Positions 6,885 through 61,258 of a DNA stretch of 64,000 bases are shown piece after piece. The stretch spans positions 15,224,385-15,288,384 of the forward strand of contig NC_092705.1 of assembly GCF_964275005.1 (NCBI RefSeq). Reading direction: 5' to 3'. The translations under genes were made by a program, and so were the position numbers. The notes beneath the pieces are model-generated. The model saw only the letters and a list, made by a program, of their open reading frames with translations, had not been told where the DNA came from and ran no database searches. Position 1 is the stretch's first letter. Each line of letters opens with the position of its first letter. Origin of the DNA: Diadema setosum. Its lineage: Eukaryota > Echinodermata > Echinoidea > Diadematoida > Diadematidae.

Positions 6885-7015
6885 AAGTAGTAGGTGGGAA
6901 CGACTTAGAATCGTAAGTCGTGGGAACGACTTAGTAAGTCGAGGGAACGACTAAGGCTCCTTAAGTCGTGGGAACGACTTAGTGAGTCGAGGGAACAACT
7001 TATAGGAAAAATACA
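6885..7015 (+). repeat. Short tandem array with GGGAACGACTTAG units
   Basis: Five or six copies of a 20-25 bp unit containing GTCGTGGGAACGACTTAGT. GTCG and CGAC halves make each unit partly self-complementary. It lies directly upstream of a LINE protein remnant. Confidence 0.65.
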
Positions 7016-7086
7016 TCATTTCTTGCCATGTCCCTTTAGGGGCTCCGTATGCGTGTGTAGCAGCCATCAAGTTCTTTAGCAATTTT

Positions 7087-7308
7087 TTGTTCGCTTTGCC
7101 GGCCTCTGCTTCAGGAGCAATGAGTGTGTTTCCAAACTGTTTACACTGGATGCCCAAGCATGGGAGCAGGAAACCAGGCAGACCAGTGATCAACTTTGTT
7201 GACATGCTTAAGAGAGACACTGGTCTAGACACCAACGAGATAAAGACCGCAATGCTGGACAGACAAACTTGGAGTGCCATTGTGGATCGAGAACACCACT
7301 CGAATTAA
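7087..7308 (+). pseudogene. LINE ORF2 C-terminal remnant
   Basis: The frame ends with SRKPGRPVINFVDMLKRDTG, then an acidic/amphipathic stretch, DRQTWSAIVD and a stop. The sequence Arg-Lys-x-Gly-Arg-Pro, then a helix containing an Asp-Thr-Gly pair, then Asp-Arg-x-x-Trp, is the usual ending of many invertebrate LINE reverse-transcriptase polyproteins. Reverse transcriptase and endonuclease domains are absent, so this is a 5'-truncated dead copy. Family resemblance is from memory. Confidence 0.6.
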
Positions 7309-12652: not shown

Positions 12653-13325
12653 CTTCTGACTCGGAAGTTTTTAGGGGTGTTCAGTCATTCCGACCTTCAC
12701 AATCAATAGCCTGCTTCGCGAATTGTAACTAAGAAGCAATTGGATTCTTCAATGTAAGAACAACCAACTTTGGCTATTATCGTTGGGGACTCTTCGCGAA
12801 GTAGACTGATTAAAATACTGATTTACAGTTCATTATGTGTACACAATTGACAACTCAGAAATATCATGTTATATCGGTTTTTTTTTTGTATATGGTCTCT
12901 TACATTCAGGAATTCAATTAGGTGAGCATTTTACACACACACACCCATGCACACATGCACAAAGTTTGTAAGATTGATTTAAGGTGAGACATAAAGAAAT
13001 GTATTTAGTAACACGCCTCATGAAAACTGTAAAGTTTCTGCTCTTTACACTGTGTACTATGTATTGCGATGTATAGATAATTTATGTGGACTGGAGTTAG
13101 TTAAGTTAACGTATTATTGTTTTGTGAATGGATGCAAGTTCTATTCTTCAAACAAGAAACCAGTAACACTGACATTATAACAATATGTAAATATATAAAT
13201 ACATATACAATATAATATGAATGCATGTATAATTATATATATGTATATATATGTGTGTATATATATATATATACATGCATATATACACATATACATATTT
13301 CATATTATATACATACCAATATTAA
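12653..13325. other. Intergenic DNA, no gene seen
   Basis: AT-rich with short AC and TA tracts. No exon recognised. Confidence 0.4.
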
Positions 13326-13689
13326 AGGCATAATTTACTATTCGCAGATGAAACAAAAACCAGCATTAGTGCTTTAAAATAGTTCTAAAATGTGAGTTAG
13401 GGATAAGATTAACCATCATTGTAAAAAACTGAATCCGTATAATCGATGTTAAGTATTGTTAAATACACAAAATGTGAACAATAGTTATAATAAAAATGTT
13501 TCCAGACTAAACCGTCTACAGTTATGGTTCATTGAGAAAAATATTGATATCTCCGTACATTTTAGGCTTTATTGCGAAAATTTTATATGGTAGGATTTTT
13601 TTGATACAACAGGCCTATTCATATGCATCAAAATAATGTGGTATTTTGAACATTTTTTACATCACTGCTCACAAAGGTAAACTGGACCT
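13326..13689. mobile_element. TTAA-flanked MITE family M1, copy 1
   Basis: Begins AGGCATAATTTAC and ends GGTAAACTGGACCT, with TTAA on both sides (13322-13325, 13690-13693). Inside are TAAACCGTCTACAGTTATGG and AACATTTTTTACATCACTG, shared with copies at 22618-22981, 47877-48216, 49036-49398 and 61259-61607. No open frame. TTAA target choice points to piggyBac- or Kolobok-type transposases acting in trans. Confidence 0.85.
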
Positions 13690-13693
13690 TTAA

Positions 13694-14640
13694 CTTATAT
13701 AGTTTTAGAGTAGTTTGACAGAGCTCACTGCGATAAACATTATACATGTGTCATTATTCGCGAGAAATGACAGACGACACTGGAAACATTGATTACAGCT
13801 CAATCCACTTAAATTGTTGATTTGAGTACAATATGAAGCAAGAAATGCAATACAAGCCCAAAATACTTTTTTTAAACCCTCGTGTAGCTAGGTAATAAAG
13901 AGGAATTATATTGAAATCTGAACCTATAAATGTCTATATAAGATAACGTAATCTTCATTTGTGAACCTACAGTTAGTGACTATTCAAATAATAATAAACC
14001 TCTACATGAATAATAACCTAAATCAAGGTTTAAGTTGTTTAAATGTTCGTGTTTCAGCGTTTGAGATTTGCTGTCGTTAAAATAGCTTTGTCACAATTAC
14101 TCTAGCTTCACTGTACCTAAAGAATATTAACAACACATGAATGTATGCTATCAAGTAAGGTTTGAATGCGCCTTAATTGAAAGGTGTTATTACTCTGATT
14201 ATCTTACTTAACTAACTTACTGAGATATAATATAATCATGTAAACTGTTATGAGTTCGCAAAAATCGCAATCAATATATATAATGGTATACTTCACAGCT
14301 ATTTCCCTTACTTCTTTAACTAACTTTATCATTTTATTTGTCAAATAATATGCTGATCAACGCAAAGGAATGTGATTATATCAACTATGGAATTACATGC
14401 ACTTTTCACTGCATATATCTGTGTCCAGCAAGCATACTATTAAATACTAATAATCCGGCTAAAATAATGCATCTCACGAATATGAAATCGTATACCACCC
14501 AAAATAACCTCTACGTAGGCCTAATATCCACTAGCTATGTAACATGATATTATATTCATAAGCATTAACACGGCAGAGTATGATGAATATCACCTGTATA
14601 ATATTAGTGTTATTCCTTTCTTAAATCCTTGATTATAAGT
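13694..14640. other. Intergenic DNA, no gene seen
   Basis: AT-rich, no motifs. The 69-codon frame at 14338-14547 has no recognisable features. Confidence 0.4.
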
Positions 14641-17347: not shown

Positions 17348-17462
17348 CTAGATGCTGATAGCGTTAGGGATGTCACTTGGGTGAAGGCAAGTGTATTTCT
17401 CTTCTCGTGACGTGTTCCTCTCGTCAATCATCCCTCCAATCTTCTCCAGGTCGGCTTGGAAC
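17348..17462 (-). CDS. Lipoxygenase, terminal exon with stop
   Basis: Reads FQADLEKIGGMIDERN, then SREEKYTCLHPSDIPNAISI and a TAG stop (17348-17350 on plus). The ending x-P-N-x-I-S-I is the hallmark C-terminus of animal lipoxygenases; the final Ile carboxylate is an iron ligand. The acceptor CATACCACAG precedes the exon at 17463-17464. One leftover base (G) completes a Gln codon begun by CA at the end of the 20391 exon, so phases agree. No canonical AATAAA was seen soon after the stop. It is separated from the next exon by about 2.9 kb containing ATTT microsatellites and a MITE. Confidence 0.93.
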
Positions 17463-20390: not shown

Positions 20391-20467
20391 TGTTTGAGCG
20401 AGGAGCAGCCATGGGGGTCGTACAGGTAACACATCTCGAAATCTCCCAAGGCCTTTGTGTCCCGGGT
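20391..20467 (-). CDS. Lipoxygenase, 3' half of penultimate exon, downstream of the transposon
   Basis: On the minus strand, after the target-duplication bases, the frame reads TRDTKALGDFEMCYLYDPHG then CSSLK and the first two bases of a Gln codon, ending at donor GTGAGT (20385-20390). The motif LGDFE.x.Y.YDP is characteristic of the C-terminal region of invertebrate lipoxygenases, downstream of the LPD block. Bases 20459-20467 are one copy of the 9-bp target duplication. Joined without that copy to 28485-28580, the exon is 164 bp and keeps the reading frame into the terminal exon. Confidence 0.9.
20459..20467. repeat. Left 9-bp target site duplication (GTCCCGGGT)
   Basis: Identical to 28485-28493 and immediately outside the inverted termini of the 8-kb element. 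Both copies encode the Thr-Arg-Asp of the interrupted exon on the minus strand. Confidence 0.9.
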
Positions 20468-20690
20468 GCGATTTTTTTTTCCGTAACCCTAACGCGTCGA
20501 AATTGCCTATTGTGTCACTTGAGCAAAGACTATCAGTGTACTGGCTGGTTTTGTACGCATGCGCTTGGACTTAGTTATGCATACTGTACTGCTATACAGT
20601 ATGTACACATATACCAGTGGCATGGTCGTCTGCTAACACAGAATCAGATTCGAATGTGAATGGCACGCCCTTCAAACATAACAAGTAGGT
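20468..20690. repeat. Left inverted terminal repeat of the 8-kb element
   Basis: Outer 35 bp identical to the complement of 28450-28484. Similarity weakens inward but CACAGAATCAGATTCGAATG at about 20637-20656 recurs in the right arm at about 28345-28365. Confidence 0.8.
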
Positions 20691-20771
20691 GTGTGTGTGT
20701 GTGTGCGTGTGTGTGCGTGTGTGTGTGTATGTGTGTGTGCGTATGTGTGTGTGTGTGTGTGTGTGTGTGTT
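20691..20771. repeat. (GT)n microsatellite at inner border of left terminal repeat
   Basis: GT repeats with GC and AT interruptions. A CA tract in the mirror position (28260-28302) suggests it belonged to the element. Confidence 0.85.
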
Positions 20772-21591
20772 TAAAAAAGAAGGTGATTCAGTAGCACAAT
20801 TAGTGAGTGCGTAAGGCAGATATGGATTGGCTTGAAGAAAGCCTTTTCTGAGATATTCATGCAGAATTCTATGTCAAGTAACACGCTACGCATGGTATGA
20901 TTTGTATATATAGGCCTATATTGTATACTGTGTGTGAGAAAAATATGATTTAGAAGCACAAGAGATAAGCATTCAGGTGCTTATTTTTGTTCAAATTCAT
21001 TTCATTGTAAACATGGGCCTGATATCGATGAAATTCTAATAAAGAATATATTTTTTTTTGTGTGTATTATTCTGTTGGCACTGCAAGTATACACTCAACA
21101 GTAACACGTTCCCATTAATCGAAGTTCCAGAGGAAAATGAGAAGTGAGGACACAAGTCGTACATGGTAAATTGGAGCTTTATTTGAAGACGTTTCACATG
21201 AGCAAGCCGTTTAGCAAGTATATCATTTTACAAAACTCAGCACTCGGTATATCGTGTACAACATAAGCAGGGAGGTGACTCACCTTGCTGGTATATTAGC
21301 AGGGAGGTGAGACTAAAATTCTCTCACCTCCCTGGTACACGGGAGGGTGCCTTTTTCAATCAAAGTTACAAATCACTGGTCACTTTCACTGACAGCGATC
21401 ACTTGTGTTCAGATTATTTATGGGCTGCCTTACGCGGCAGCCTCAAAAGTGGAGTGAGCGTCAGGTGGTGTCCGTTGACAAGCCACGAATGATTTTTTTT
21501 TTTTATTTTTTTTTGTGGGGGGGGGGAAGAGTAGGATAATAGTGCTGCATGATATAATGATGTGTACATAGGCCGTGAGGTAAAAGAAATT

Positions 21592-22610
21592 TCATTTCAA
21601 TTCAATTCAATTCGATTTTATTGTCCGTTTCTGGAAATTTGTTTTGTTAGCATGCATACAAGTTACATCGATACATACAATATACAGAGCACACGTTTAA
21701 CATGGATACACATGATAAACACGCAAGAGATATACAGCAATACAATGTCAATGTCATTGTCAGAAATATATAACATTAAAGAAATATTAATCTGTATAAA
21801 TCAACGTTGTGTTGGGTGTGGTGTGCATTAACATACACAAGTGTGTAAACATGTATCAGATTTATAATAACTATATAAAACTTTTGAACAATATAAATCA
21901 ATACATCTTTACGTCTAAATAAGTGATGGTATTAAAAATCTCGAAGGCTATTTATGTGCGTGTGTGTGCGTGTATATGTGTATACGTGTGTGAACGTACA
22001 AAAATGTAAGTTTATGTTTTTTGACAAAACCGTATAAATTACATCCATACGATTGTTCTTTTGCTTTTGTTTTACAAAGATGCTGTATGATATAGTAATT
22101 TGCTAGTCAACTGTTAGGATGGCGTTAACAGCTGTCTGTGAAGGGTTAGTGTATAGGATCGCATTCTGTTGTATAACATAAAAAATCTACGGTTTAAAGA
22201 TGTTAAAAGCAATGACAGTATTCAGTGAAACATTGTGCCAACATCGATCCATGTGACGTTTACATGAATGGTAAGTCCAGCGTGGCACGACATAACTATG
22301 TGCATGTATAAGGTTGAGCCAACATTGGTTCGAAACCCAGATGTTGACTCCACTAGGAATTAATCACCTACACTGTTCAAAAATTCATTCTGCCCCCCTC
22401 CCCCGCAGAAAAGTGGTGTTTTGATGTGCTCGTCACTTAATTTATGAAGAGTATTTTGATAATTTGTAAAGAAATCATTGAGAAATTTATTTGAAATGTA
22501 TTTTCCATGATGTTTTGATGAAGTAATAGAACTGATGTCACAAAGGTTATTTGTAAAATATTTGGAGTGATTACTATAGAGGATGAATTTGAAATGGAAT
22601 ACAAACATGT
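21592..22610 (-). mobile_element. LINE 3' end with TTGAA tail, extent uncertain
   Basis: On the minus strand the segment ends AATAAAATCGAATTGAATTG and closely resembles the tails at 42020-42056 and 50975-51005. Upstream sequence to about 22610 may be the rest of the LINE but no reverse-transcriptase motif was recognised. It lies inside the 8-kb element. Confidence 0.5.
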
Positions 22611-22617
22611 ATTTTAA

Positions 22618-22981
22618 AGGTCCTGTTTACCGTTGAGAACAGTGATTTAAAAAATGTTCAAGATATCACTTTTGATGCATATTATGTGTAGGTCATTTCG
22701 TTGTATCACAAAACATCCCACCATATAAAACGTTTTCAATAAAGCATGAAATATAAGGAGATATCACTAGTTTTCTCACTAAACCATAACTGTAGACGGT
22801 TTAATCTGGAAACGTTTTTATTATAACTATTGTACACATTTTGTATATCTAAAAATACATAACATCGATGATAATGGTTCAAATATTTACATTGGTTGTT
22901 TCTATCCCTACGCACATTTAAGAACTATTTTGAAGCACCAATGCTGGGTTTTTGTTTCATATGCAAAAGGAAATGATGCCT
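22618..22981. mobile_element. TTAA-flanked MITE M1, copy 2
   Basis: Begins AGGTCCTGTTTACC next to TTAA (22614-22617) and ends GGAAATGATGCCT next to TTAC. Contains AAACCATAACTGTAGACGGT. It is inverted relative to copy 1 and nested in the 8-kb element. Confidence 0.8.
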
Positions 22982-23153
22982 TTACGTTAGAATATGAAAT
23001 TTTGCATACATGTACTTTTTTTTTCTATTCTCTTGTATAGGAAGTCGCTGGAAACGTCATAGATTGCCTGATTTTCTTGATCGATTATAATTTGTTGAAA
23101 ATTAGAATGATGCCTTTCTTAAGAAAGTTTTCCTCAATCTTTAACCAATAATA

Positions 23154-23167
23154 TTTTCTTATTTGCC

Positions 23168-23202
<35 letters not shown>
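23154..23202. repeat. Poly-T run
   Basis: About 30 consecutive T after TTGCCAAGG. Probably a microsatellite or the A-tail of an unrecognised retroelement. Confidence 0.6.
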
Positions 23203-23203
<1 letters not shown>

Positions 23204-23519
23204 AGTTATCTTTAGTTTGGACTTCCCCTTACTTTAGGTTTCAAACACAGACATGTAAATTCATCTATTTCAACGTTTGACGTTGTATCTCAGGTCAGCA
23301 AAAGTTGTCGATTTCTACAGCCTGGATGCATTAGGATGCGTGCAGAAAATGCACAGAAATTTGTTAGGAAAAACATATAGCACTAATAGTCATATGAGCG
23401 GTTGAATTGGCAGAAAGGGATGAAACAAACTTTATGAACATCCCAGCTGGCAGACGGAGGTCAATAAGACTTCTCAATTTGGTTGCAACTACATGGTCAA
23501 AGTTGTCGCAAGTCTTAAA

Positions 23520-25215
23520 ATGACAAGAAAATTACGTGATTTCAACGTCTCTTTGAAACGAATTTATCACGTCATGTTATGGACCTCCTGATGTGTTACG
23601 TCAGTTTTCCGACATATTTATTACCTAATATTGGTGACATATTGATGACGTAAAGTTTACGTCAATTTTGCGACGTAATTTTTACGTCATAAACACGTAT
23701 TAATGACGCAATCTACGTTGGTTTGCAACGTATTCATAGCGTTATCTAAATGACGTCTTAATACCGTAATATATACTTTGTTTTACAACGCATTTATGAC
23801 GTCATATGAGCGACGTATTAACGTGAAATTTTCTTCAGTTTTGAGACGTATTTATGACGTCATATTAGCGACGAACTAAAGACGTAAAATTCAAGCCAAT
23901 TTTGTGACGTATTATTCACGTCGTATTTACGACGCATAAGTGAAGTAAAATTTACGTTGCTTTGCAACGTATTTATCACATCATATTAATGACGTATTAT
24001 AACGTGAAATTTAGGCTACACTGTTTTGGGACGTATATATGACGTTATATTAGCGACATGTGAACGTTATGTTCCCGTCAGTTTGCGACGTCTTCGTGAC
24101 GTCATATAATTAGGCCTACGAATTATAGAGTTTTATAGTTATATCAGTTTGCTTTGCAACGTGTTTATCACGTCATATTAATGACGTATTATAACTCTAA
24201 ATTTACGTTGTTTTGCGACGTATCTATAACGTTGCATTAGCGACATATTAACGTTATGTTCACGTCAATTTTGCGACGTCTTCATGACGTCATATAATTA
24301 GGCCTACGAATTATAGTTTTGTAGTTATATCAGTTTGTTTTGCAACGTATTTATCACGTCATATTAATGACGTATTATAACGTTAAATTTATGTTGTTTT
24401 GCGACGTATTTATGACGTTATTATATATAAGCGACATATTAACGTTATGTTTACGTACGTTTTTCGACGTCTTTATAACGTCATATAGTTAGGCCTACTA
24501 ATTATAGAGTTTTATAGAGTTATATCAGTTTGCTATGCGACATGCTGTCGTCAGAATGACGACATTTTCACGTCATTACTGTCGTCAGAAAGACGTCGAA
24601 ACTGTCAACAATAAGACGAATTTTTGTTCAAATGGAAGATATAAAAATGACGTCATTATTTAGACTTCAGAAAGGCGCAATAATTGTCGTTTGTTTAACG
24701 TAAATAAGCAAAGAAAGCCAGACATCATTTAGACGTCTTAAACTGATGCCAGAAAGTCGTATTTCTGCTCTAATGGATGACGTCTAAAAGACGACATATT
24801 TGTGACGTCTTTCTGACGTCTGGGTTGTTATACAAAGACGTCATAAAGACGTGTAAATTACTAATTTAAAGACGAGACCGACGTCAAAAAAATCTTTTAG
24901 ACGAAAATAAACAAAGATACTGGATGTCATATAAACGTTTCAAACTGACGTCAATATGTCGTATTTTTGCTCAAATGGAAGTTGTCCAAAAGACGTCATT
25001 GGTGGTCATATAAGAGTCGTCTTAATGACGTGTAAATCACAATTCTAAAGACAAGATGTACGTCAGAACGTCATGAGCACGTCGTTTACACGTCAATTCA
25101 TGACTTTTTAACGTATATTGGAAAAGAAAACAAGGAATACATCTGAAAGACGCCTTTTCTTCAAGAACAAGGGAAATGGACGTGATTTTGACGTCATTTT
25201 GAAGTCGTGGCCATT
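23520..25215. repeat. 1.7-kb degenerate array saturated with GACGT/ACGTC
   Basis: Almost every 15-30 bp contains GACGT, ACGTC or AACGT. Larger units such as GTATTTATGACGTCATAT, GCGACATATTAACGTTATG and TAGGCCTACGAATTATAG recur at about 190-bp spacing between 24050 and 24530. The perfect palindrome TGACGTCA occurs at least five times (for example near 23797, 23858, 24098, 24286, 24650). Later units (24540-25210) use AGACGTC and GACGTCTT more. No coding frame runs through it. It sits in the middle of the 8-kb transposon. Confidence 0.85.
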
Positions 25216-25680
25216 TGGTTTATCAGTATTTCAGTTTAAGATCTAATAAAGCGCTTGTGAGCACCTCAAGGTACAATCATGATAAAAATCTAACCTACCC
25301 TACTCCTGCAAATGTCCTAAGCCTTACATCTACGTCTACCACCTATTCATATATAGTTGCTAGCACTGTTGTATCACGTTTAAGGGGAAAAATTTGTAAC
25401 GCTTTATGACATGGTTACTAAACTAGGTCACAGCAGGCTCAATCTTGAAATATATATGTGTTCATAAAACACGCTGAAGTTTGAATAACAAACATTTTTT
25501 AACAATAGAGCGCACAATTTCTGACACTTTAATGATTATGACCAGAATGTTTACTTTTTCAGACGTGAACAACGACCAGCTGTGACCTCGCTTTCAATTT
25601 CTTTCAGAATAACTCTTGATTATCATACGTTTTTTACTTTAGCATACACAAAACTTTGCAAGTAACGATATACTGCACAC

Positions 25681-25820
25681 CTACCACACCCACACAAACA
25701 CATAAACACACAAACACACATTGCACGCACTCGCACATACACACAAAGACACACACATAAAGTGCATGGAAGGTGCAATCATTGCACTTTCAGGCACCCG
25801 CCCTCGAGTTTTCGGTGCAA

Positions 25821-25853
<33 letters not shown>
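25681..25853. repeat. Two CA-rich microsatellite tracts
   Basis: CACA-type repeats at 25681-25760 and a clean (AC)n at 25827-25853. Frames of Cys/Val or His/Thr are artefacts. Confidence 0.85.
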
Positions 25854-25854
<1 letters not shown>

Positions 25855-26359
25855 TTGCAACATTGCTGATAGATTCCGTACTTTTGTCCAGGCTTGGTAT
25901 GGAGCTATATAGGTGACCATAATATGATGGCTATCATCGTTTAAAGGTATATCAGTTTCCTATAAATGCATATCATAAAAACGCGTAAGTAGCGTCTGTG
26001 ACTCTGAACAGATGCTTGATATTCCAACTTAATGAAAAGACCTTAAATTTGGCTAATATCGGGTAGATTAATTTTCTTTTGGTTATCCTTCACCATTAGA
26101 ATAAATGAAATTAATTGATTTTGTGCCAAATAACAACACATTATAAAACGATCGTTTCAAGTCGCTTCCACAAATGTGTATTATTACTCATAAACTCATG
26201 AACCCACCTGGGAATCTGATACCGGTTAATGCCAGGTGATTGTTTCTATAATATATCGATCATGAAGTTTCATAAAAAGTTACGAGTATAAGAAGAACTC
26301 GAGTTTTGGAGCGCGCTCGGTAACCAGCTAACACGTGTGAATGCGGCTAGTGTTCTTAC

Positions 26360-26395
26360 AAACAAACAAACAAACAAACAAACAAACAAACAAAT
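26360..26395. repeat. (AAAC)n microsatellite
   Basis: Nine CAAA units between GTGTTCTTA and TCAGTG. Possibly a SINE tail without a recognisable body. Confidence 0.8.
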
Positions 26396-26835
26396 CAGTG
26401 TTTTAATATTCAATCATGAATTATCTTCATCATTTCATTGAATCGACTTACAATAAGGGTGCTAGGCCATGTGGGCATTAAAGGGAGGGATCGAGTAGGA
26501 TATATTGATAGTCGCAATGCTTTTTAGACTGATGACAATTATGAAGCTGAAAATATGCAAGAGATTTCGTGAAGTTGTTGATGGATTGGTGACATGAAAA
26601 AAAAAGTATTGATAGTGCAATACGGTGGAGGATATAATTGCTTGTGGAAATATGTATGCGATGGTAATACGAGTAGCAATCATGGTGATGATGATGATGA
26701 TAAGATGATATCCAGTTGTGAAATGATAGTAATGATGTTTATGGTCGATCCCACAGAACTCTTTTCTGTGATCGATCCCTCAGTTTTATAATCTAATTGA
26801 AGCAATGATGGTCGTGATGATTGCTTGATATTAAA

Positions 26836-27415
26836 GGAAAACAAAACCCAAAAGAGAAATATGGATTGAGTGAACGCAGCAACATTAGTAAAAGTTTGAG
26901 GAAAATCCGACAACCGATGCAAAAATTATTCATTTTTCTAGTTTTGGTGTTGTAATCACTGGATAAGGAGACTATTAGAGTCCATGACGTCATGTGTGGA
27001 CAACAATGTAAAGAAAACATGAAGAGAATTCTACAAAGAAATCATTTTTCATGAAAATTACACATTCCATCAACTTAACTGATACAATGTACTGACATAA
27101 GTTATGTTAAAGGCAGTAATCATTCCCCCTACTTTCTGAAAGCGGTTTTTATAGTCAAATGTTCTTTCATTACGCAAGAAAAGTGAAAAAAAGTTTTATG
27201 ATTTTCTTTATATTTTCTTTATGTTGTTGTCCACACATGATATCATGAACTCAAGTATCCCCTTATCCAGTTGTACCAACATCAAAACGTTAAAAATGCT
27301 TAACTTTTGCATCTTTTACAATATTGTGCGATTTTCCTTTAACTGTCACTGATGTGTTTTACTAATGTTGCTGCTTTCACTCAATCCACATTTCTCTTTG
27401 GGTTTGGGTTTCCTT
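26836..27415. mobile_element. Long TTAA-type palindromic MITE M2, intact copy
   Basis: Starts AGGAAAACAAAACCCAAAAG after TTAA and ends in the complementary CTTTGGGTTTGGGTTTCC. The halves share GATTGAGTGAACGCAGCA / CTGCTTTCACTCAATCC, GTTTGAGGAAAATC and CATGACGTCATGTGTGGACA / TGTCCACACATGATATCATG. Same family as 55594-58462 (interrupted) and 10455-10735 (partial). This copy shows what the interrupted one looked like before insertion. Confidence 0.8.
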
Positions 27416-28071
27416 CACTGATGGTCGTTTTGGTAGAGGTAACGAGGCACTTGATGAGGAGAACTATAGGGTTGGCAATGATAAAGTGAACGTCCAAAAA
27501 TATAGACCTCTTATATTTATATTGATAGATCAATTCAAACCGTCCGTGATATTAGAATTTTAAATGAAAATGAGTTGCTGTTTGCTTTATAAATGTTGTT
27601 TCAAAATGCTTTTATAAAGCTGATTGAATTAATATATCAATATAGAGATTTTATCGATCGAAATCAATGATTACTCTCCCCCATCTTCATCTTGGATGTT
27701 AGTGCATGAGAATTTAATCATATCTGATCTACATGAACCTGAACTAAAAAGGAGCGTATACTACGCCTTTCTGAATCATTTCTTATTAAAGCACAATCAT
27801 CGTGAGGTTGGAGAAGTATAAACCCAAATTAACCAAGTAGTGTATTCATGTTACCCAATTAGACATAATGCCCACTTCGAATCTGATTCTGCGTGGCTTA
27901 ATAAACATGATCAAAGTTAACAATAGCAATTGCTGCAGTTGTACGCCTACATAGGCCTATATAATACTTATATCATAATTCATTCCAAGCTTAGATTTCC
28001 AATTTACTTTTGCAAGATATTGATGAAAACTTCGAGTTTGCATCTTGTACTCCATGACTGAATTTCTCTTT

Positions 28072-28147
28072 TCTAATGTTTCATCGAGACGCTCAGCGCT
28101 TAGAAACATTGTAATAAGCGCTTTATAAATGAAATTTATTATTATCT
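28072..28147 (+). mobile_element. LINE-type 3' tail with GCGCTTTATAAATG
   Basis: TTAGAAACATTGTAATAAGC, GCTTTATAAATGAAA and a short ATT run resemble the tail at 36830-36915 (GCGCTATATAAAAACC then ATT repeats). Only the end of the element is present. Confidence 0.5.
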
Positions 28148-28259
28148 TGCGAGACAAGAGGGAAAGTGTAAGCAGACGGCGAACAAACCCACAGGAATAC
28201 CAGCAGACGGCAAAGCAGAACGCGATGCCGATGGCGAAATGGAAACACGCACATATCCA

Positions 28260-28260
28260 C

Positions 28261-28302
<42 letters not shown>
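28260..28302. repeat. (CA)n microsatellite at inner border of right terminal repeat
   Basis: Twenty or so CA units, mirror-placed to the GT tract at 20691-20771. Confidence 0.9.
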
Positions 28303-28303
<1 letters not shown>

Positions 28304-28484
28304 GCCGTTGTTATGACAGTTCACAAGGCGGCGTGCCATTCTCACATTCTAATCTGATTCTGTGGTTGGCAGAGGACCATGGTACTTAACACAAGTATCG
28401 CAACCAACTAGTACTCTGATAGTCTTTGCTCAAGTGCCACAATTGGCACTTTCGACGCGTTAGGGTTACGGAAAAAAAAATCGC
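28303..28484. repeat. Right inverted terminal repeat of the 8-kb element
   Basis: Ends GGGTTACGG-A9-TCGC, the complement of the left end. Read on minus from the lipoxygenase exon it adds about 32 codons and then a TAA stop near 28386. Confidence 0.85.
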
Positions 28485-28493
28485 GTCCCGGGT
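28485..28493. repeat. Right 9-bp target site duplication (GTCCCGGGT)
   Basis: Perfect copy of 20459-20467 at the other border of the element. Confidence 0.9.
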
Positions 28494-28580
28494 GCTGAGC
28501 AGCTTGGTGAAAGTCATGACGCTTAGGGTCTCTTCTAGGTCAGGTAGTTGCTGCAAGATGTCCTTCTCCGTCAAAGGAGT
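28485..28580 (-). CDS. Lipoxygenase, 5' half of penultimate exon, upstream of the transposon
   Basis: After acceptor CCCGTCCAG (28581-28582) the exon opens in phase 0 with TPLTEKDILQQLPDLEETLS and VMTFTKLLSTRD. The block D-x-L-P-D followed by a hydrophobic helix ending in LLS is conserved in animal lipoxygenases after the third His/Asn ligand exon. There is no usable donor before the transposon boundary, so the coding sequence runs straight into the insertion and meets a stop about 32 codons later. The missing remainder is at 20391-20458. Confidence 0.92.
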
Positions 28581-29065: not shown

Positions 29066-29239
29066 CTTGTCGCGAGGCGGCTGGCCGTGCAGCCTAGCGG
29101 GATAGCTCGGAGGGAAACCATACTGGTCGTATTGACCAAAGTTGGCTGCTGCATGGCCCGCGCTGCAGATGAAGACAAAGTTGGTAACTGTTTCTGCCAC
29201 TTCATCAGTGGTGAGGAACTGGCCGCTGTTGGGTAGTCC
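29066..29239 (-). CDS. Lipoxygenase exon with third His and Asn iron ligands
   Basis: A 174-bp exon, phase 0 on both sides: acceptor CCGTCCCAG, donor AAG then GTGTG. The 58 residues include FVFICSAGHAAANFGQYDQY and end in GQPPRDK. His and Asn of HAAAN are the third and fourth protein iron ligands of lipoxygenases. The following GQY and the Pro-rich end match the family pattern (NFGQY, then F-x-P-N-x-P, then PPP). No frame damage is visible. Confidence 0.96.
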
Positions 29240-29667: not shown

Positions 29668-29759
29668 CTGCATACCAACCGTCGCCTCCTCTTCGTTTTT
29701 CGGCTCCCCTCCAAGAAACCTACCCCATTCCTGCAACTCTTTGTCTTGTTGGATCTTCT
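29668..29759 (-). CDS. Lipoxygenase short exon (ELQEW block)
   Basis: A 92-bp exon too short for simple frame searches. It opens with two bases that complete a Glu codon from the 31632 exon and reads KIQQDKELQEWGRFLGGEP then KNEEEATVGMQ, ending at a strong donor CAG then GTAGGT. The pattern D-x-E-L-Q-x-W sits just upstream of the G-(F/L)-P segment in the family. Acceptor is GATTCATCAG. Phases on both sides match the neighbours exactly. Confidence 0.92.
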
Positions 29760-30127
29760 CTGATGAATCTATTGAATAGCATAGAGAACAGACTAGTGAC
29801 AGCTCTTTCCAATGACCATCCCGTTTTCAGCAAGTTGCTGTTTTTAAATACACTTTCAACGATTTTAGAAGTGAATTTCTTTTGTTCACACTCAAAGCTC
29901 ATTTTAAAAACATGGTTGGTGCACGGGGGAAAAATAGCCAAAGAAGTTTCATTATCAAACTAATTCGGGATATTTATTTTATAGTAGGCCTACCCAAATG
30001 ATGTTTACGTGAATGACCTAATGCATTTCAAGTTTTGTGGTATGAAGACGGGAGACGTAATCGTGACATCGGGTGGAAAGATGATTCGCCTTTTCATCTC
30101 CCTGTGCCAGATTAGCCATTCAGGATT

Positions 30128-31631: not shown

Positions 31632-31891
31632 CGTAGTAACTGTCAATGATGCGCTTTACGTAGTCGAAAATAGCTCTGCGAATAAGCACCGCGTCGTCTC
31701 GGTAGTGGTAATTTGGAAGTACTTCCGGGTCAGCCACTCTCCTGTCCTCAAGGTCAGCGAGGAGGGATCCCTGCACATCGAGTCGCCATTTCTTCCACCT
31801 TCGTTTGATGATTTCGAACATTCCGATACGTCCAATGGTCATGGTGGTGTCCACCCACCCACCCTCAGAAACCAGCTCATTTACGGCAAGA
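31632..31891 (-). CDS. Lipoxygenase exon (LPNYHYRDD block)
   Basis: A 260-bp exon with acceptor TTGGCCTTCAG and donor TACG then GTTAGT. It encodes LAVNELVSEGGWVDTTMTIG, then a basic helix, ADLEDRRV, LPNYHYRDDA and a helix ending DYVKRIIDSYY. The Y-Y-R-D-(D/G)-x-x-x-W/R-x-A-I helix and the preceding L-x-x-R-G/V stretch are typical of the lipoxygenase catalytic core. The residue that controls S/R stereochemistry in some lipoxygenases should lie near the DTTMTIG segment; I cannot assign it without an alignment. Reading frame is intact and both phases match. Confidence 0.95.
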
Positions 31892-34787: not shown

Positions 34788-35002
34788 TTGTTTATGGCGA
34801 GGAGAAAGAGGAAGTGAGGAGCTAGGAGACGGAAGACCGGATGGGATGGAGACAAACATCGATGCGTTGCCAAGGCGATTGATTCTCCTACATAGTGAGT
34901 GAAGCCCAGATGGACAGCCGACTCGTGGACCGAGGCATCGGCGTTGTTGAAGTAACACTTGGCCAGGAGCCAGGTGTACTCGGGATCAGACGGGTAGAAA
35001 AC
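34788..35002 (-). CDS. Lipoxygenase exon with first two His iron ligands
   Basis: A 215-bp exon: acceptor AAATGAAACAG, donor AACAA then GTGTGT. It reads [20 protein letters not shown], then [20 protein letters not shown] and a helix ending [18 protein letters not shown]. The two His separated by four residues in HESAVH are the first iron ligands. [12 protein letters not shown] and HP-x-(F/Y)-(K/R)-LL-x-PH are diagnostic of animal lipoxygenases. Starts in phase 0 and ends in phase 2, matching both neighbours. Confidence 0.97.
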
Positions 35003-36328: not shown

Positions 36329-36424
36329 TGGATTGTTTGGGGCTGGATCTTGGAAGAGCTGGATTGCTATTGGCATCAGGTGCTTGGATTTATCGACGAA
36401 GAACAAGGCCATGGGAGCACAAAT
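36329..36424 (-). CDS. Lipoxygenase exon (MPIAIQL block)
   Basis: A 96-bp exon in phase 0 on both sides. It encodes ICAPMALFFVDKSKHLMPIA followed by IQLFQDPAPNNP, with acceptor TTGTTCTCAG and consensus donor GTAAGT. C/A-AP-x-x-LF, then (L/M)-x-PIAIQL-x-Q and NP before the DPE..W exon, is the expected lipoxygenase order. Confidence 0.96.
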
Positions 36425-37530: not shown

Positions 37531-37655
37531 CGTCCTTCCGTCCGTACACGGGAGGTCCTTTAAGAAGTTGTAGTTGACGATGAAGAGCCGTTTCCTTGCG
37601 ATGGCCTCGTCGATGGTCATGTTCTCGATAAGCGGCTGAACGTCCCTTTCGTTCA
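37531..37655 (-). CDS. Lipoxygenase, most 5' exon recognised
   Basis: A 125-bp exon: acceptor AGTTTCGCAG, donor ACG then GTGAGC. It encodes VNERDVQPLIENMTIDEAIA, RKRLFIVNYNFLKDLPC and TDGRT. V-x-x-x-x-V-x-P-x-(L/I)-E then (L/I)-x-E-x-I-x-x-x-(R/K)-LF-I-V-(D/N)-Y is the usual lipoxygenase sequence about 100 residues before the first iron ligand. It begins with two leftover bases, so an upstream exon ending in one base must exist. The region encoding FG.QFLNG.NP, the start of the catalytic domain and the PLAT domain were not found to the right. Confidence 0.94.
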
Positions 37656-39015
37656 CTGCGAAACTACATCGTGTGATAATGTGACTGACGTGAGGTAGAT
37701 ATTAATCTCTCTCTCTATCAAAACGTTTGTATTTCTCCATCTGGTCTAGTTCCATACATTGTATTATAAGCTACACATTGTATGATTACAGCATTGGATT
37801 TATGCACCATGTTTTTAACATTTCTTTTACTTGCTATTGGGATGTCTGTATTCCGATTTGCTTATCTTCACAAGGTGCTGATTTCTCCTCATGATTAATG
37901 ATAAAAAGCAGGGTTGCTCAAGCCATCGTACAAGTCTTGCTACTATGTTTGTCAGTTTTGTTGACTGCCAGTCAACATTGGTAAAAAGAACAGAGGGAAC
38001 AACCAGAAATCATAGAATATTATTTGTCCTTTTGTGGTGGTAATCTGAATTATCTTGCGTGCGATCACGATTCGATTAAAATGTAATGTAATAAGACCAT
38101 GAGGAGGGACAAATCCACATGAAATTATAATTTTTGGTTTAATTGATTCAGACATTAAATCCATTAGATTTGAAATTAATAATCTTATTTGGATTTGTCC
38201 CTCCTCATGGTCTATTAGATAACTTTTTAATCCAAAGAATTTAGAGTGTGGAGTCGCTGCTCGGACAAAAAAATAGTTAAGTTCTGCGTAAGAGAATGAT
38301 CCATTGAATTCTATTCTGCCATTATCTATCGATAAGTCAACACAAACAACAAGCAACAAACTTATTGAACGACTTTATTTCGAGTTTTTATCATCAGCAA
38401 CCATTTATAAAAGCTGTAAGGGTGTAAGGGGGGGGGGGGTACCTATACATAGAAAGAGGTGTAGGTTGTGGGTGCATTAATCCGGAAGACTGTTGTAAGC
38501 GTAAACTGAAAGACATCTTTCCAGCAATCTGCCTGATTGTAATGCTCATACGGGCAAAAGCATATTTCCATAACTAAACTAGGCTGTAGTTACGAGGAAA
38601 TTATACTCGACAGCTGGAGAAGAAAAACCAAACTTAAAGACACCCAGTCGCGAGGATACATGGACATATTTCAGCCGCGGGCGGCAGCACGTAAACTCGC
38701 TTCCGAAGTTGCTACGAAGCGAAATGTGTGTGTGCGCAAGATATCCCTAAAGCAATGTATCGCGCTATAGTATCTCGTTTGCTCGCTTGATTGATCTGAG
38801 CGCGGGGAGTACGTTTTGTGTAATGTGAATTGAATGTATGGTATACTGTATGTACTGTGAACATGTGTGATGCAATGTTCGCATGAGCTATAGTAGCTAG
38901 CTGCCTATACTTCGTACGACTACAGTGTACGCCTTCTCTTCATCGCACCGTCGATTGTCGTCACTCGTTAACTACACTGCAATCGTCAGATCAGATTATA
39001 TATAGGTAGGGTGGC
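37656..39015. other. Presumed lipoxygenase upstream intron or 5' flank, no exon seen
   Basis: Includes a 135-codon minus frame (37952-38359) without motifs. It spans two complementary arms, ACCATGAGGAGGGACAAATC at about 38096-38115 and GATTTGTCCCTCCTCATGGT at about 38191-38210, so it is probably a small hairpin element. A G run lies at about 38430. Confidence 0.4.
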
Positions 39016-43117: not shown

Positions 43118-43157
43118 CCAAACAAACAAACAAACAAACAAACAAACAAACAAACAA
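43118..43157. repeat. (AAAC)n microsatellite
   Basis: Nine CAAA units immediately before the 43158 repeat. Confidence 0.9.
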
Positions 43158-44256
43158 AACTAGAAATGTCGCTATAGCGACTAGTATGCATCCGCCATAA
43201 TGCGTGACATAATTGGCAAAATATTAAAATGACGAGTTTGTCACAATTAATGTGTTCAGATTTAATTGCATGAATGGTTATATTGTCTATGAGTGCAGGT
43301 ATTTGGTGATTTAAGGATTTTTACCTGACGTTAACCCTTTTACAAGTTTATGCATTGAGTAATTTTCAAGGTATGGAGAAAAGGTGTAATTTCAGTATTA
43401 ACAGTAAAATAATAGCATTTTAACCTGACCTTTGACCTTATGGCCCTGGAATTCCCAGGAGAAACAATGTCAGGTAGAACATGATATACTATTCATGATG
43501 ATACCTGGAGTCACTTTATATTGAGAGATATGGAGGAAGAAGTGAAATCTAGCACTTTCACTTGACCTTTCATCTATGATCCTTTAGCAAGAAACTTCCC
43601 AGAGAATCTCTGTTGGGTAATGAATGTAGGCCTAATATGAAGTTTCAATAAAAATGATGCAGGCATTGCAGAAATGTGAGGGAAAAGTGAAATTTTGAGG
43701 AGTTGACCTTAACCTCTGTGCTCTGACCTTGGACCCATGACCCCCAAATTCCTTATATGATCACTGCCAGTCAGTACATGCATATAATTATAAAAAGTTC
43801 AATGAAGATATCTCGAGCCATTTGCGAGGTATGGAGAAAAAAGATGACATTTTGATATCTTTACTTAACCTTTGACCTTTGACCTTTAACCTCATGACCC
43901 CAAACTTTTTGTGGAGAATCTCCATTTGGTAGTACATGTACATATACACTAAGTTTCAAGAAAATATCTTCAGGCGTTGCATAGATATGGGGGAAATACT
44001 GAAATTTTGAGCATTAAGACCTTGACATTTGACCTTGAGCATGTGCACCCGAAAATTGTGGGCACTCTTTCGCCCACTTATACAATACATGCCGAGTTTC
44101 GTTAGGATACTTCGAACGTTTTTTTAAGTTACGCTCTCCTCAAAATTTATTAGAGACGGAAGGACAGACGGAAGGACAAACGGAAGGACGGATGGACGGA
44201 CGAACGGAATACCCGAAAACATAATGCCTCAGGTGACACTTCGTGGCGGAGACACA
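43158..44256 (+). repeat. 1.1-kb dispersed repeat with TGACCTTTGACCTT runs
   Basis: Begins AACTAGAAATGTCGCTATAG (as the complement of 1-216). It contains at least four blocks with TTGACCTTTGACCT separated by about 120 bp, then GGAAGGACGGA repeats (44158-44210), and ends ATAATGCCTC, GTGGCGGAGACA. The 3' part recurs at 60130-60363. It is internally periodic, as if built by tandem expansion of a 110-130 bp unit. No long frame. Confidence 0.75.
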
Positions 44257-45687: not shown

Positions 45688-46610
45688 GCACGGTGTCTCA
45701 CCCCCTAAATTTAATATCAACGCTAAATATAATATCGACCCTAAATGTATTACACCTTAACCCTAATTGTAATAACAATCTTAAATGAAATACATTTTAA
45801 CGCCAAATGTAATAATCGAGTCAACCCTAAATGTAATACATTTTAACCCTAAATGTAATATCGCCCCTAAGTGTAATACATCTTAACTCTATATGTAATA
45901 AATGTCTAATAAATGTAATAACAACCCTAGATCTACAAATCTATACATTTTAACCCTAAATGTAATAACGGCGCTAAATGTAATAATCCAGTCAACCCTA
46001 AATGTAATACATTTTAACCCTAAATGTATTAAGCGGAGACAACCATAAATGTAATAAAATCGACCCTAAATGTAATACATCTTAACCCTAAATACAATAA
46101 CGACCCTAAATGCAATACACCTTAACCCTAAATGTAATATCGATCCTAAATGTAATAACGACCCTAATTGTAATACACCTTAACCCTAATCTAATGTAAT
46201 AACGACCCTTAATGTAATACATGTCAACCCTAAATGTAATATCGACCCTTAATGTAATACTTTTTAACCCTAAATGTAATATTGACCCTAAATGTAATAC
46301 ATCTTAACGCTAAATGTAATAACAACCCTAAATGTAATACAATTTAACGCGAAATGTAATAACTATCCTAAATGTAATTCATGTCAACCCTATTAGATGT
46401 AATACATTTTAACGCTAAATCTAATTACGACGCTAAATTTAGTACACCTTAAGCTTTTAAACTGTAATCACACCCCCTAAATGTATTACATTAACGCTAA
46501 GTATAATAATCGAGTGAACCAAAACTGTAATAACCAGAGACAACCTTATCAAAATATATAGCATGTCAATCCTAAATGTAACACTTTTTGACCCCTCAAT
46601 CTAATATCCA
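45688..46610 (+). repeat. Left arm: degenerate ACCCTAAATGTAATA array
   Basis: About 50 imperfect units, often paired as a 15-mer plus a 7-8 bp spacer (CATTTTA or CGA). The hexamer CCCTAA, which equals the telomeric repeat complement, appears in most units, but the period is not 6, so this is not a telomere tract. Confidence 0.9.
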
Positions 46611-47604
46611 TCCCTTTTCTGTATGAGATACTAGGATTTCGAATGAATTATGTTAAAAGGAGCTTTAGTGGTCGTCAGTTTTATCATGCAATAGGCAATG
46701 GCAAAAGCACATTGAATTTATTCTTGGTTTTCTCATACAGCTTTTTCGGCCTTCCAAATTGCAGCATAACATGTATCCATTACTCCACGTTCTGCAATTG
46801 ATATCATTATCGAGTCAACAGTTCAGGCTTCGCTCAAAGTAAGTTTGCCTTACTCAAACATTCATATAACATAGAAAAGTCAATGATAAAAATGGTGATT
46901 CAAAGATGATAAAAAATACATCTATTTCCTTTTGCTTTATGGGCAATTTTGAATTTATTTCGTGTGCCCTCCCCACGACCAATTGCCCCAGTGTCGTGTC
47001 AATAAGTATAGCAGTGATTGCCAGGAGTAGTGAACAATGTCATGAGGCTAATATTTCGGACAGTGATTTAAGCCCTGTCAATGTGTGGCAGATATTTCGC
47101 TATTGAAAGGCTATATAGATAATGATGGTTCATAAAAATTTGGCGACATCTTTCTAAATCTTTCTAATTTCTAATTTTCTAAATCTACCAGTGCTCGCTC
47201 TATCATCCAGTTTCATCAGTAGGCATATGTGTTTTTTCTTGCAATATTATTCACATTCAGAATTTCCTTGTAAAGAATTTTTGCCCATTTTTTCTTTTTC
47301 TTAAAAACTGTAAAAAATCATGAACACTGAATGAAGATTGGAATACAAAATGTTTGTGTGATTGTAAGATAAAGGTAATAGATTGAAAAACTGTCACATG
47401 GACCTAGGAACTAATAAGACAAACAACAAAACAAATCTAAGCAACTATTGCTGCTCTTGAATGCTATAGAAGGTTTCGTCATATCCCCTACCCCCTGACC
47501 TTTTGCCCAATATTCTGCGTTGATTACGCTCTCTATATTATAATGAGGTGTATTATGTTTAGGGTCGTAATTACATTTAACGTTCTGAAACAACATAATT
47601 TTAG

Positions 47605-47872
47605 TACAAATTCTCAGTTTAGTTTTCGTAAGAAGCCACTCATGCTCTCTCAAGTTTCGTTGAAAGAGTGGCTCATGGAATTGACCACCACTCTCATATT
47701 TGATTAGCATTTTCTTGGACTTCTCCAAGGCCTTCGATACAACTAATGATATTTTGCTTTTCAGTTATCACATTATGGGATTCGTGGGAAGGCCTTGGAG
47801 TGGTTCAAGAGTTATTTATTTAATAGAAGACAGTTTGTCAAAAAAAAAATGATAACTCATTGATCAGAGAAG
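47605..47872 (+). pseudogene. LINE reverse-transcriptase remnant, middle part (first duplicate)
   Basis: Allowing frame changes, pieces read FLDFSKAFDTTND, then SHYGIRGKALEWFKSYLFNR and RQFV. D-F-x-K-A-F-D and HYGI.G.-W-F-x-SYL-x-R-Q are reverse-transcriptase blocks of jockey/CR1-like LINEs. An M1 MITE interrupts immediately after REVK. Confidence 0.75.
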
Positions 47873-47876
47873 TTAA

Positions 47877-48216
47877 GGGTCCAGTTTACCTTTGGGAGCA
47901 GTGATTTCAAAGATGTTCAAGATATCACGTTTGATGCGTATGTATAGGTCTGTTGTATCACAAAACATCCTGCCATATACGATTTTCGCAATAAAGCCTA
48001 AAATATTAGGAGATATCAGTGTTTTTCTCAATAAACCGTAACTGTAGACGGTTTAGTCTGAAAATGATTTACCATAACTATTGTTCACAATTTGTGAATT
48101 TTAAAAACACTTAACATCGATTATACAGATTCAAATTTTTTACAGTGGTTGTTTCTATCTCTAACTCACATTTTGGGTTTGGGTTTTTGTTCATCTGCAA
48201 ATGGTAAATTTTGCCT
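47877..48216. mobile_element. TTAA-flanked MITE M1, copy 3
   Basis: GGGTCCAGTTTACC start with TTAA at 47873-47876, end TTTTGCCT with TTAA at 48217-48220. Inserted in the LINE and duplicated with it (compare 49036-49398). Confidence 0.85.
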
Positions 48217-48235
48217 TTAAAAAATGAATGAATAA

Positions 48236-49398
48236 TGTTAAAAGGAGCTTTCGTGGACGTCAGTTTCATCATGCAATAGGCAATGGCAAAAGCGCATTGA
48301 ATTTATTCTTGGTTTTCTCGTACAGCTTTTTCGGCCTTCCAAATTGCAGCATAACATGTATCCATTACTCCACGTTCTGCAATTGATATCATTATCGAGT
48401 CAACAGTTCAGACTTCGCTCAAAGTAAGTTTGCCTAACTCAAACATTCATATAACATAGAAAAGTCAATGATGAAAATGGTGATTCAAAGATGATAAAAA
48501 AGACATCTATTTCTTTTTGCTTTATGGGCAATTTTGAATTTATTTCGTGTGCCCTCCCCACGACCAATTGCCCCAGTGTCGTGTCAATAAGTATAGCAGT
48601 GATTGCCAGGAGTAGTGAACAATGTCATGAGGCTAATATTTCGGACAGTGATTTAAGCCCTGTCAATGTGTGGCAGATATTTCGCTATTGAAAGGCTATA
48701 TAGATAATGATGGTTCATAAAAATTTTGCGAAATCTTTCTAAATCTTTCTAATATAGTAAAGTAAAGTACAAATTCTCAGTTTAGTTTTCGTAAGAAGCC
48801 ACTCATGCTCTCTCAAGTTTCGTTGAAAGAGTTGCTCATGCAATTGACCACCACTCTTTGATTAGCATTTTCTTGGACTTCTCCAAGGCTTTCCATACAA
48901 CTAATGATATTTTGCTTTACAGTTATCACATTATGGAATTCGTGGGAAGGCCTTGGAGTGGTTCAAGAGTTATTTATTTAATAGAAGACAGTTTGTCACA
49001 AAAAAAAAAGATAACTCATTGATCAGAGAAGTTAAGGGTCCAGTTTACCTTTGGAAGCAGTGATTTCAAAGATGCTCAAGATATCACATTTGATGCGTAT
49101 GTATAGGTCTGTTGTAATACAAAATATCCTGCCATATACGATTTTCGCAATACAGCCTAAAATATTTGGAGATATCAGTATTTTTCTCAATAAACCGTAA
49201 CTGTAGACGGTTTGGTCTGAAAAAAATCTATCATAACTATTGTTCACATTTTGTGAATTTTAAAAACATTTAACATATATCGATTATACAGATTCAAATT
49301 TTTACAGTGGTTGTTTCTATCCCTAACTCACATTTTAGAACAATCTTAAAGCACTAATGCTGGGTTTTTGCTTCATCTGCAAATGGTAAATCATGCCT
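48236..49398 (+). repeat. Tandem duplication, second copy
   Basis: Starts TTAAAAGGAGCTTTCGTGG. The 48491-48691 frame differs from 46906-47106 by a single residue, and the LINE fragment and M1 MITE follow in the same order. High similarity shows the duplication is recent compared with the LINE. Confidence 0.85.
49036..49398. mobile_element. TTAA-flanked MITE M1, copy 4
   Basis: Splits the LINE frame between REVK (before) and GVPQESLLGPLLF (after), with TTAA on both sides (49032-49035, 49399-49402). Confidence 0.85.
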
Positions 49399-49402
49399 TT
49401 AA

Positions 49403-51004: not shown

Positions 51005-51748
51005 ATTTGAATTGAACATTAGAATGTATTACATTAGATAGGGTTCATATAAATTACTTTTATTATTTTGATTACATTTTGCATTAAAATGTATTACATT
51101 TAGGGATGTTATTACAATTAGGGTCGATATTACATTTAGCGTCAAGATGTACCTCATTTAGGGTCGATATTGCATTAACGGTTGAAATGTATTACATTTA
51201 GTAGGGTTGTTATTACATTTAGGGTTGTTATTAAATTTAGGGTTAAGGTGTATTACATTTAGGGCCTTTTTTTACATTTAGCGTTGAAGATGTATTACAT
51301 TTAGGGTCGATGTTACATTTAGGGTTGTTATTACATTTAGGGTTGACATGTATTACATTTAGGGTTGTTTCGATTATTACATTTAGGGTTAAAATCTATT
51401 ACATTAAGGGTTCTTATTTCATTTAGGGTTAAGGTGTATCACATTTAACGTCGTTATTACATTTAGCGTTATAATGTATCATGTTTAGGGCCGTTATTAC
51501 ATCTAGGGTTGACATGTATTACATTTAGGGTCGTTATTACTTTTCGGGTAAAGAAGTATTACATTTAGGGGGTAACTTGTATATATTACTTTCAGGGTTG
51601 TCTCCGGGTATTACGTTTAGGGTTGACTGGATTATTACATTTAGGGTTAAAATGTATTACATTTAGGATTGTTATTACGTTTGGGGTTACGGTGTATTAC
51701 ATCTGGGGTCGATATTACATTTAGCGTTGATATTACATTTAGGGGTGA
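51005..51748 (-). repeat. Right arm: inverted ACCCTAAATGTAATA array
   Basis: Reads TATTACATTTAGGGT on plus, about 40 imperfect units. Its outermost 60 bp mirror the outermost 60 bp of the left arm unit by unit. Confidence 0.9.
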
Positions 51749-51754
51749 TGAGAG

Positions 51755-60840: not shown

Positions 60841-61258
60841 GGTAGACATGCATGCCCAAATAAATTCAGTGGAAAAAAGAATTTAGAACTTAAGACTGGA
60901 GTGTAATAAAGATAGGTGTCAAACACGTGACACAGCCCTTCATTTTCTATGAGAGTTAGTTGTCCTTATTTCAGTTGGCAAAATATCTGAGTTTGGACAA
61001 CCCTTTAATCAGAGTGAAGTCTATGTTATCTTTGTGCCATGTTTGCATCATCATGCATGGTACAGCTTCAGCCCTGTAGTCATGATGGGGGACATACTGT
61101 AAAACATGATATTTTCGCGAATTGGAGCCCACGGCCTTTTGCGCTGCATGAAATTTTTGCGTGTTGCTGATAACATTCAATACATATAGTGTAGACAAGA
61201 ATTTTCACATGCATTTTGATTTCGCAAATCTTGGCTCTCGCGAAATTTGCGAAATTAA

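Follow-up and report, generated by a model that had tools for sequence, protein, structure and literature searches.

An 8-kb inverted-repeat transposon of a probably young family splits exon 8 of a lipoxygenase gene without 5' exons in the Diadema setosum assembly

The 64,000-nucleotide stretch analysed here, referred to throughout as the window, comes from Diadema setosum, a widespread reef sea urchin (NCBI RefSeq assembly GCF_964275005.1, contig NC_092705.1, forward-strand positions 15,224,385 to 15,288,384), and lies on the contig that we designate C22. It holds eight exons of a lipoxygenase gene, all on the minus strand, one of which is split by a non-coding transposon with terminal inverted repeats (TIRs), 8017 bp in length (20468..28484, no strand assigned; its ends and flanking duplication were read directly). 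The first exon present, e2 (37531..37663), begins at about codon 270 of the homologous protein P0001, and its start was placed at 37663 instead of 37655 from the residues that homologues carry before the motif NERD. It is followed by e3 (36329..36424), e4 (34788..35002), e5 (31632..31891), e6 (29668..29768), e7 (29066..29239), the two halves of the split exon, e8a (5' half, 28485..28580) and e8b (3' half, 20391..20458), and the last exon e9 (17348..17462), which ends in the stop codon.

Joined across the transposon, these exons give 415 stop-free codons, counted from NERD, and the resulting protein matches the lipoxygenase family PF00305 at an E value of 7.7e-61. The three His, the Asn and the C-terminal Ile that we take to be the lipoxygenase iron ligands fall in e4 (two His), e7 (third His and Asn) and e9 (Ile), so that four of the putative ligand positions precede the insertion and the Ile follows it; the corresponding alignment columns (H/H/H/N/I) are kept in 119-121 of 121 aligned lipoxygenases, the window copy included. 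Solved structures were matched by the joined protein and by a longer exon, but not by the short open reading frame (ORF) of e8a alone. The closest protein among the homologues listed is P0001 of Diadema antillarum, identical at 393 of 415 residues. Two D. setosum lipoxygenase proteins appear among them as well: P0002, which aligns to contig C3 with 100% identity in 8 of 12 rows, the other four overrunning exon edges, and P0003. Judging by these identities, the C22 gene and P0001 would most simply be orthologues in the two species, with P0002 as a paralogue.

An earlier note on this DNA, made by a model from the letters alone, had proposed that a DNA transposon sits inside a coding exon of this lipoxygenase, and the insertion could be traced to the base. 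Both termini of the element read GCGA-T9-CC-GTAACCC, mirrored as had been claimed, and are flanked by a perfect 9-bp target-site duplication (TSD), GTCCCGGGT, at 20459..20467 (left copy, plus strand) and 28485..28493 (right copy, plus strand, which is also the end of e8a); this sequence occurs in the window at the two junctions only, with 0.08 occurrences expected by shuffling. The left TIR extends over 20468..20770 (plus strand), where its inner part ends in a GT microsatellite, and the right one over 28245..28484 (minus strand), where it carries a CA microsatellite. The two match without gaps over 82 bp with 6 mismatches, beyond which a gapped match continues into the GT/CA microsatellites, reaching about 240 bp at the right end and about 285 bp at the left end. 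Once the element and one TSD copy are removed, exon 8 measures 164 bp and is entered in phase 0 and left in phase 2, and both neighbouring exons fit. The rejoined length and the phases thus bear out the earlier note, as do the open frames and GT/AG borders of the other seven exons, in which it had seen no damage.

The unoccupied state of the site is provided by other lipoxygenases. In the homologue comparison, which covered 120 listed homologues of 305 matches, all 120, aligned to the window exon after removal of the second TSD copy, show a length difference of zero at the insertion site, so that the exon is uninterrupted in every one of them, and on contig C3 of this genome the DNA of the paralogous exon can be aligned across the site without a net gain in length. 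Repeats present in many almost identical copies, such as this element, are prone to misjoins, and the split exon could in principle be an artefact of assembly in which two loci were joined via the repeat, the exon halves then coming from different genes. Yet the halves carry the same 9-bp TSD and complement each other in frame and in length; against P0001, 30 of 33 residues agree in one half and 25 of 26 in the other, and for neither half was a second copy of comparable identity found on another contig. We regard an artefact of this kind as extremely improbable.

Translation running from e8a into the element reaches a stop after exactly 32 of its codons, in agreement with the estimate of about 32 in the earlier note, and the C-terminal Ile, an iron ligand, is lost from the product, again as foreseen there. 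Skipping of exon 8 was considered as a rescue and rejected, its 164 bp not being a multiple of three. Splicing could offer another way out, with the element removed as an intron: within the element, a GT is located 15 bp from one terminus and an AG 21 bp from the opposite one, and their use would add 15 residues in frame, encoded by these 15 nt and 21 nt from the element ends plus 9 nt of the TSD. This pair, the outermost one, is the single in-frame and stop-free combination among 126 nearby donor/acceptor pairs, although one passing pair carries little weight, since the acceptor must follow the last in-frame stop. There is precedent in the introners derived from DNA transposons, which carry both splice sites, one of them adding residues from element and TSD (PMC9860276). 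The candidate donor, TCC|GTAACC, agrees with the metazoan consensus at 4 of 9 positions, whereas the seven donors of the gene itself agree at 7-8 of 9. The 60 codons after the insertion, none of which carries a lineage-specific change, would suit a gene still in use, but so few changes are equally explained by a very recent insertion, and the gene also lacks its 5' exons. Removal of the element by splicing thus seems highly unlikely to us.

Over the 415 codons, the comparison between the window copy and the C3 paralogue yielded a ratio of nonsynonymous to synonymous divergence (dN/dS) of 0.132 with a synonymous divergence (dS) of 0.543, and the copy was therefore under constraint for the greater part of its past. 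When P0002 was taken as the outgroup, 5 changes were specific to the window copy and 10 to P0001, 7 being undecided; the faster decay of the window copy relative to P0001 that was looked for is not seen in these numbers. From such comparisons of sequence, the gene is best described as a lipoxygenase copy that was under constraint during most of its history and whose damage is recent. Three observations weigh against this description. Exon e9 taken alone has a dN/dS of 0.41 in the same comparison. Two substitutions of the window copy are also unusual: at G196R, 104 of the 119 other sequences have G, and at W314R not one of the 119 has R. They might mean that relaxation had set in earlier, a suspicion tempered by the larger number of specific changes in P0001.

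The insertion is accompanied by a second defect, the absence of the 5' part of the gene. Searches with P0001 and P0002 (tblastn) recovered in the window all exons from about residue 270 onward, but nothing significant for residues 1-269 of P0001 in the 26.3 kb upstream within the window. A lipoxygenase profile based on 29 homologues from the list, most of them from echinoderms, gave the same picture: its N-terminal part reached a best E value of 0.29 in the window and of 1.1 in the next 40 kb upstream of it, nine C-terminal pieces scored between 3e-6 and 2e-43 in the window, and on the C3 gene the same profile found N-terminal exons at E values of 6e-68, 4e-18, 2e-11 and 0.05. In a whole-genome search with P0001 at E <= 0.001, the large N-terminal exon was detected on C3, twice on C15 and twice on C20, and not on C22. 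A complete N-terminus with a PLAT domain was accordingly found neither in the window nor in the 40 kb beyond it, and had no match on C22 at that threshold. In this assembly, the C22 lipoxygenase is thus without some 269 of the 688 codons of P0001, including the PLAT domain and the start, and the description of the gene in the earlier note as otherwise intact is not supported, its first approximately 269 codons being absent from 66 kb upstream and not found on C22.

The 5' exons may nevertheless exist intact, either on the far side of a very long intron or in sequence that the assembly lost, as suggested by the stop-free exons of the window, their strong past constraint and the prediction of the closest D. 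antillarum protein (P0001) with an N-terminus. Against this, the exon preceding the e2 counterpart lies only about 0.6-1.7 kb away in 4 of the 5 other loci (those in which both exons were found), with nothing significant here in 66 kb, and C22 yields nothing, the closest N-terminal exon being the C3 one at 73%. We thus consider intact upstream exons unlikely, if less so than the two alternatives weighed above, and keep to a gene with two lesions. Two points speak against counting the second lesion as a true one: the 5' exons could be lost through misassembly and not from the genome, which would restore the otherwise intact gene, and the yardstick P0001 is a predicted model with an odd N-terminus that has an extra leader and misses a stretch relative to P0002.

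Two candidates for displaced remains of the 5' region were examined and set aside. A match to RLHGCNPGEMR in intron 5, considered as a displaced N-terminal exon, had an E value of 0.33 and was taken as chance. The stretch 43142-44164, tried as a remnant of the 5' flank, proved to be a dispersed repeat with two further occurrences in the 40 kb upstream of the window; it is internally repetitive and similar to DNA just upstream of the start of the C3 lipoxygenase.

The element belongs to a family whose copies were sampled as the best 40 of 372 candidates, 30 of which were read, so that the counts that follow are minimum values and young copies are over-represented. With the left 93 bp as query, 372 first-look candidates were obtained in the genome, and 40 of the 40 scored matched over the full length at 98-100%, seven of them, the window copy included, at 100%; a query of 521 bp from the interior gave 226 candidates, 40 of which were scored at 85-100%. 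The first 1.5 kb of the window copy, leaving out the microsatellite, was compared with 29 other copies; the closest, on C17, differs by 2 substitutions in 1418 positions and is followed by copies at 5/1414, 7/1415, 8/1403, 10/1415 and 10/1415. The recent date that the earlier note had proposed for the insertion is sustained by this nearest copy and by the unchanged 60 codons downstream of the insertion. Because the divergence of the nearest pair is far below that expected between alleles of the species, whose heterozygosity is given as 2.07-2.15% in its genome paper (PMC11066563), it is plausible that the insertion is segregating, barring gene conversion, a process that could itself mimic youth when acting between copies. 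Transposons in exons are usually purged, and an insertion 0.14% away from the nearest compared copy speaks for a family recently or currently active. The literature searched contained no description of this family, a statement that holds for these searches only; peptides encoded by the TIRs were not found in annotated proteins (0 of 696 candidates scored), and a 22-mer of the TIR had no occurrence in viral contigs.

Two copies of about 17 kb lie on C3 at 7635857-7653132 and 7690504-7707782, 37 kb apart and oppositely oriented; their TSDs, CTCCAGGAG and GGCCGGCTG, differ from one another, each being repeated at 9 of 9 positions. Copies of this size were examined as a possible autonomous partner and rejected in that role, as 8 kb of the copy at C3:47337620 is colinear with the 8-kb element and is then followed by a nested retroelement. 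This copy and the window element are 97.9% identical over 2.7 kb, an overlapping row giving 93.4% over 3.2 kb; the retroelement was called by eye from reverse-transcriptase-like ORFs, with 8 kb of this one copy covered.

The target sites of this sample share a strong motif. Among the 30 left TSDs, that of the window included, C occupies position 4 in 29 and G position 6 in 29, and a C or G (S) stands at position 3 in all 30 and at position 7 in 26; a palindromic S-C-N-G-S core at positions 3-7 is complete in 24 of the 30, whereas the background frequency per position is 1.6% in the 100 bp alongside and 0.5% over the window as a whole. The family also has a strong preference for GC-rich sites: left flanks average 50% GC within 100 bp of the element and 39-43% farther out. 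Where the right end was sought in 19 other copies, the TSD matched at 9/9 positions in 11 and at 8/9 in one, mismatched in 2, and in 5 the end fell outside the short stretch retrieved; one further right-end stretch, the twentieth, had no left partner. The two mismatches (L049 and L056), among 14 readable right ends, count against the reading given here, as does the choice of the 30 target sites from the copies of highest identity, which are not independent of subfamily. At L056 / L089, on C10 near 39118073, a right end and 9 bp are directly followed by GCGATT, which suggests adjoining family members and may explain one of the mismatches.

In the lipoxygenase gene, SCNGS sites occur at 20.2 per kb in exons and at 5.6 per kb in introns, and because of this 3.6 times higher density in exons, an insertion into an exon would be the predicted outcome. 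We infer from this that GC-rich exons may be natural targets of the family. The coding context of the other insertions was approached through flanking ORFs, of which 33 were collected (32 from other copies) and ten sent to Pfam without a match, a result too weak to decide.

As to what moves the family, no transposase was found in the element. It has no long ORF; of the 17 stop-to-stop ORFs that reach 70 aa in its region, ten were compared with Pfam, chosen so as to leave out those in the element ends and microsatellites, and they matched no family above the curated cut-off. PF10551, the domain of Mutator-like elements (MULEs), was located at 27 places in the genome, none of them, by eye, inside the mapped copies, and the two places inspected lack this family's terminus. 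Among known systems, the Mutator superfamily is the one with which long TIRs and a TSD of 9 bp agree (PMC6446971); the element presents long TIRs of this kind and a TSD within the 8-11 bp characteristic of that superfamily. For maize Mu, PMC2774946 and PMC6446971 report exons hit more often than introns and a preference for GC-rich regions; the first of these describes a weak consensus, SW::SWNNNNNWS::WS, and credits the exon bias to the 5'-most exons and not to GC content. The D. setosum family shares with MULEs and maize Mu the length of the TSD (9 bp), TIRs that run to hundreds of bp, the existence of non-autonomous members and a preference for GC-rich DNA, with exons as predicted targets, but departs from maize Mu in its strong SCNGS core and from MULEs in that no transposase is seen in its copies. 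It may belong to the Mutator superfamily.

The family also resembles the foldback elements Tetris of Drosophila virilis and Tm1 of Meloidogyne, which have long TIRs, TSDs of 8-10 bp and non-coding copies (PMC4079207, PMC3169594); another foldback-type element, TU, comes from sea urchin. The very long TIRs of short tandem repeats typical of foldback elements were not found in the window element, in which the GT/CA microsatellite of the inner TIR is the only such sequence; unlike foldback elements, it has a TIR of about 80 bp that is tight plus a looser part, no short tandem arrays except GT/CA, and an interior common to the copies. With the introners derived from DNA transposons it has in common a TSD, TIRs and potential splice sites near its ends, but its 8 kb and poor donor set it apart from them, the median lengths of their families being 30-654 nt (PMC9860276). 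On the side of the gene, the identity to P0001 and the five putative iron-ligand positions are those of animal lipoxygenases of the PF00305 family, from which the C22 copy differs by the interruption of exon 8 and the absence of the N-terminal codons with PLAT.

Taken together, the data make it very probable that a young cut-and-paste family put one copy into exon 8 of a recently, doubly damaged lipoxygenase gene. A cut-and-paste DNA transposon family, young in D. setosum, would be mobilised in trans, as suggested by copies without a visible gene, by a transposase not seen in the 8-kb copies, and its integration machinery, an enzyme postulated from the sequence pattern, would cut with a 9-bp stagger around the palindromic S-C-N-G-S. 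One copy would have landed in lipoxygenase exon 8, where the stop 32 codons into the element would remove the last 60 residues and with them the C-terminal Ile to which we ascribe a ligand role, and the mRNA would be expected to give no active enzyme; lacking its 5' exons in this assembly as well, the gene would have suffered two losses. A wider proposal, which we put forward tentatively and hold to be possible but doubtful, is that the family moves by means of a transposase type not yet described, which reads the SCNGS core in a 9-bp stagger, that the GC-rich exons of an AT-rich genome are its default target, that it is still jumping, and that the lipoxygenase insertion is a segregating null allele among many exon hits.

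An insertion into an exon is ordinary in kind, and it is the youth and the target specificity of the family that are worth following. The strong target motif makes the genes hit a testable prediction, and the high copy number offers ready material for the mapping of insertion polymorphisms. As regards the gene, the C22 lipoxygenase should not be counted as functional from this assembly, even though the prediction for a close D. antillarum gene has both ends.

Several further features lie within the transposon or elsewhere in the window. An ACGT-rich stretch of the element (23560..25210, plus strand), partly a 186-bp tandem array, has a CpG observed/expected ratio of 2.31, 42 ACGT per kb against 2-5 elsewhere, and seven TGACGTCA motifs. 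A dispersed repeat of about 370 bp is nested in the element at 22606..22984 (plus strand), and four other copies occupy 13321-13696, 47870-48220, 49029-49402 and 61254-61619; most pairs among the five are 79-87% alike, their ends resemble TTAA..AGG / CCT..TTAA, and a relative sits in an intron of the C3 lipoxygenase paralogue. A nested imperfect palindrome (26834..27415, no strand assigned) has arms 74-89% alike. Outside the element, the direct repeats 46641-47168 / 48226-48753 (97.5% identity) and 47603-48221 / 48766-49403 (90.8% identity) look like a recent tandem duplication. Long self-similar arrays lie at 56271-57637, 45702-46594 and 51011-51750, the last two mutually inverted, and two ORFs on the plus strand, at 49463-49873 and 7006-7308, resemble reverse-transcriptase fragments by eye.

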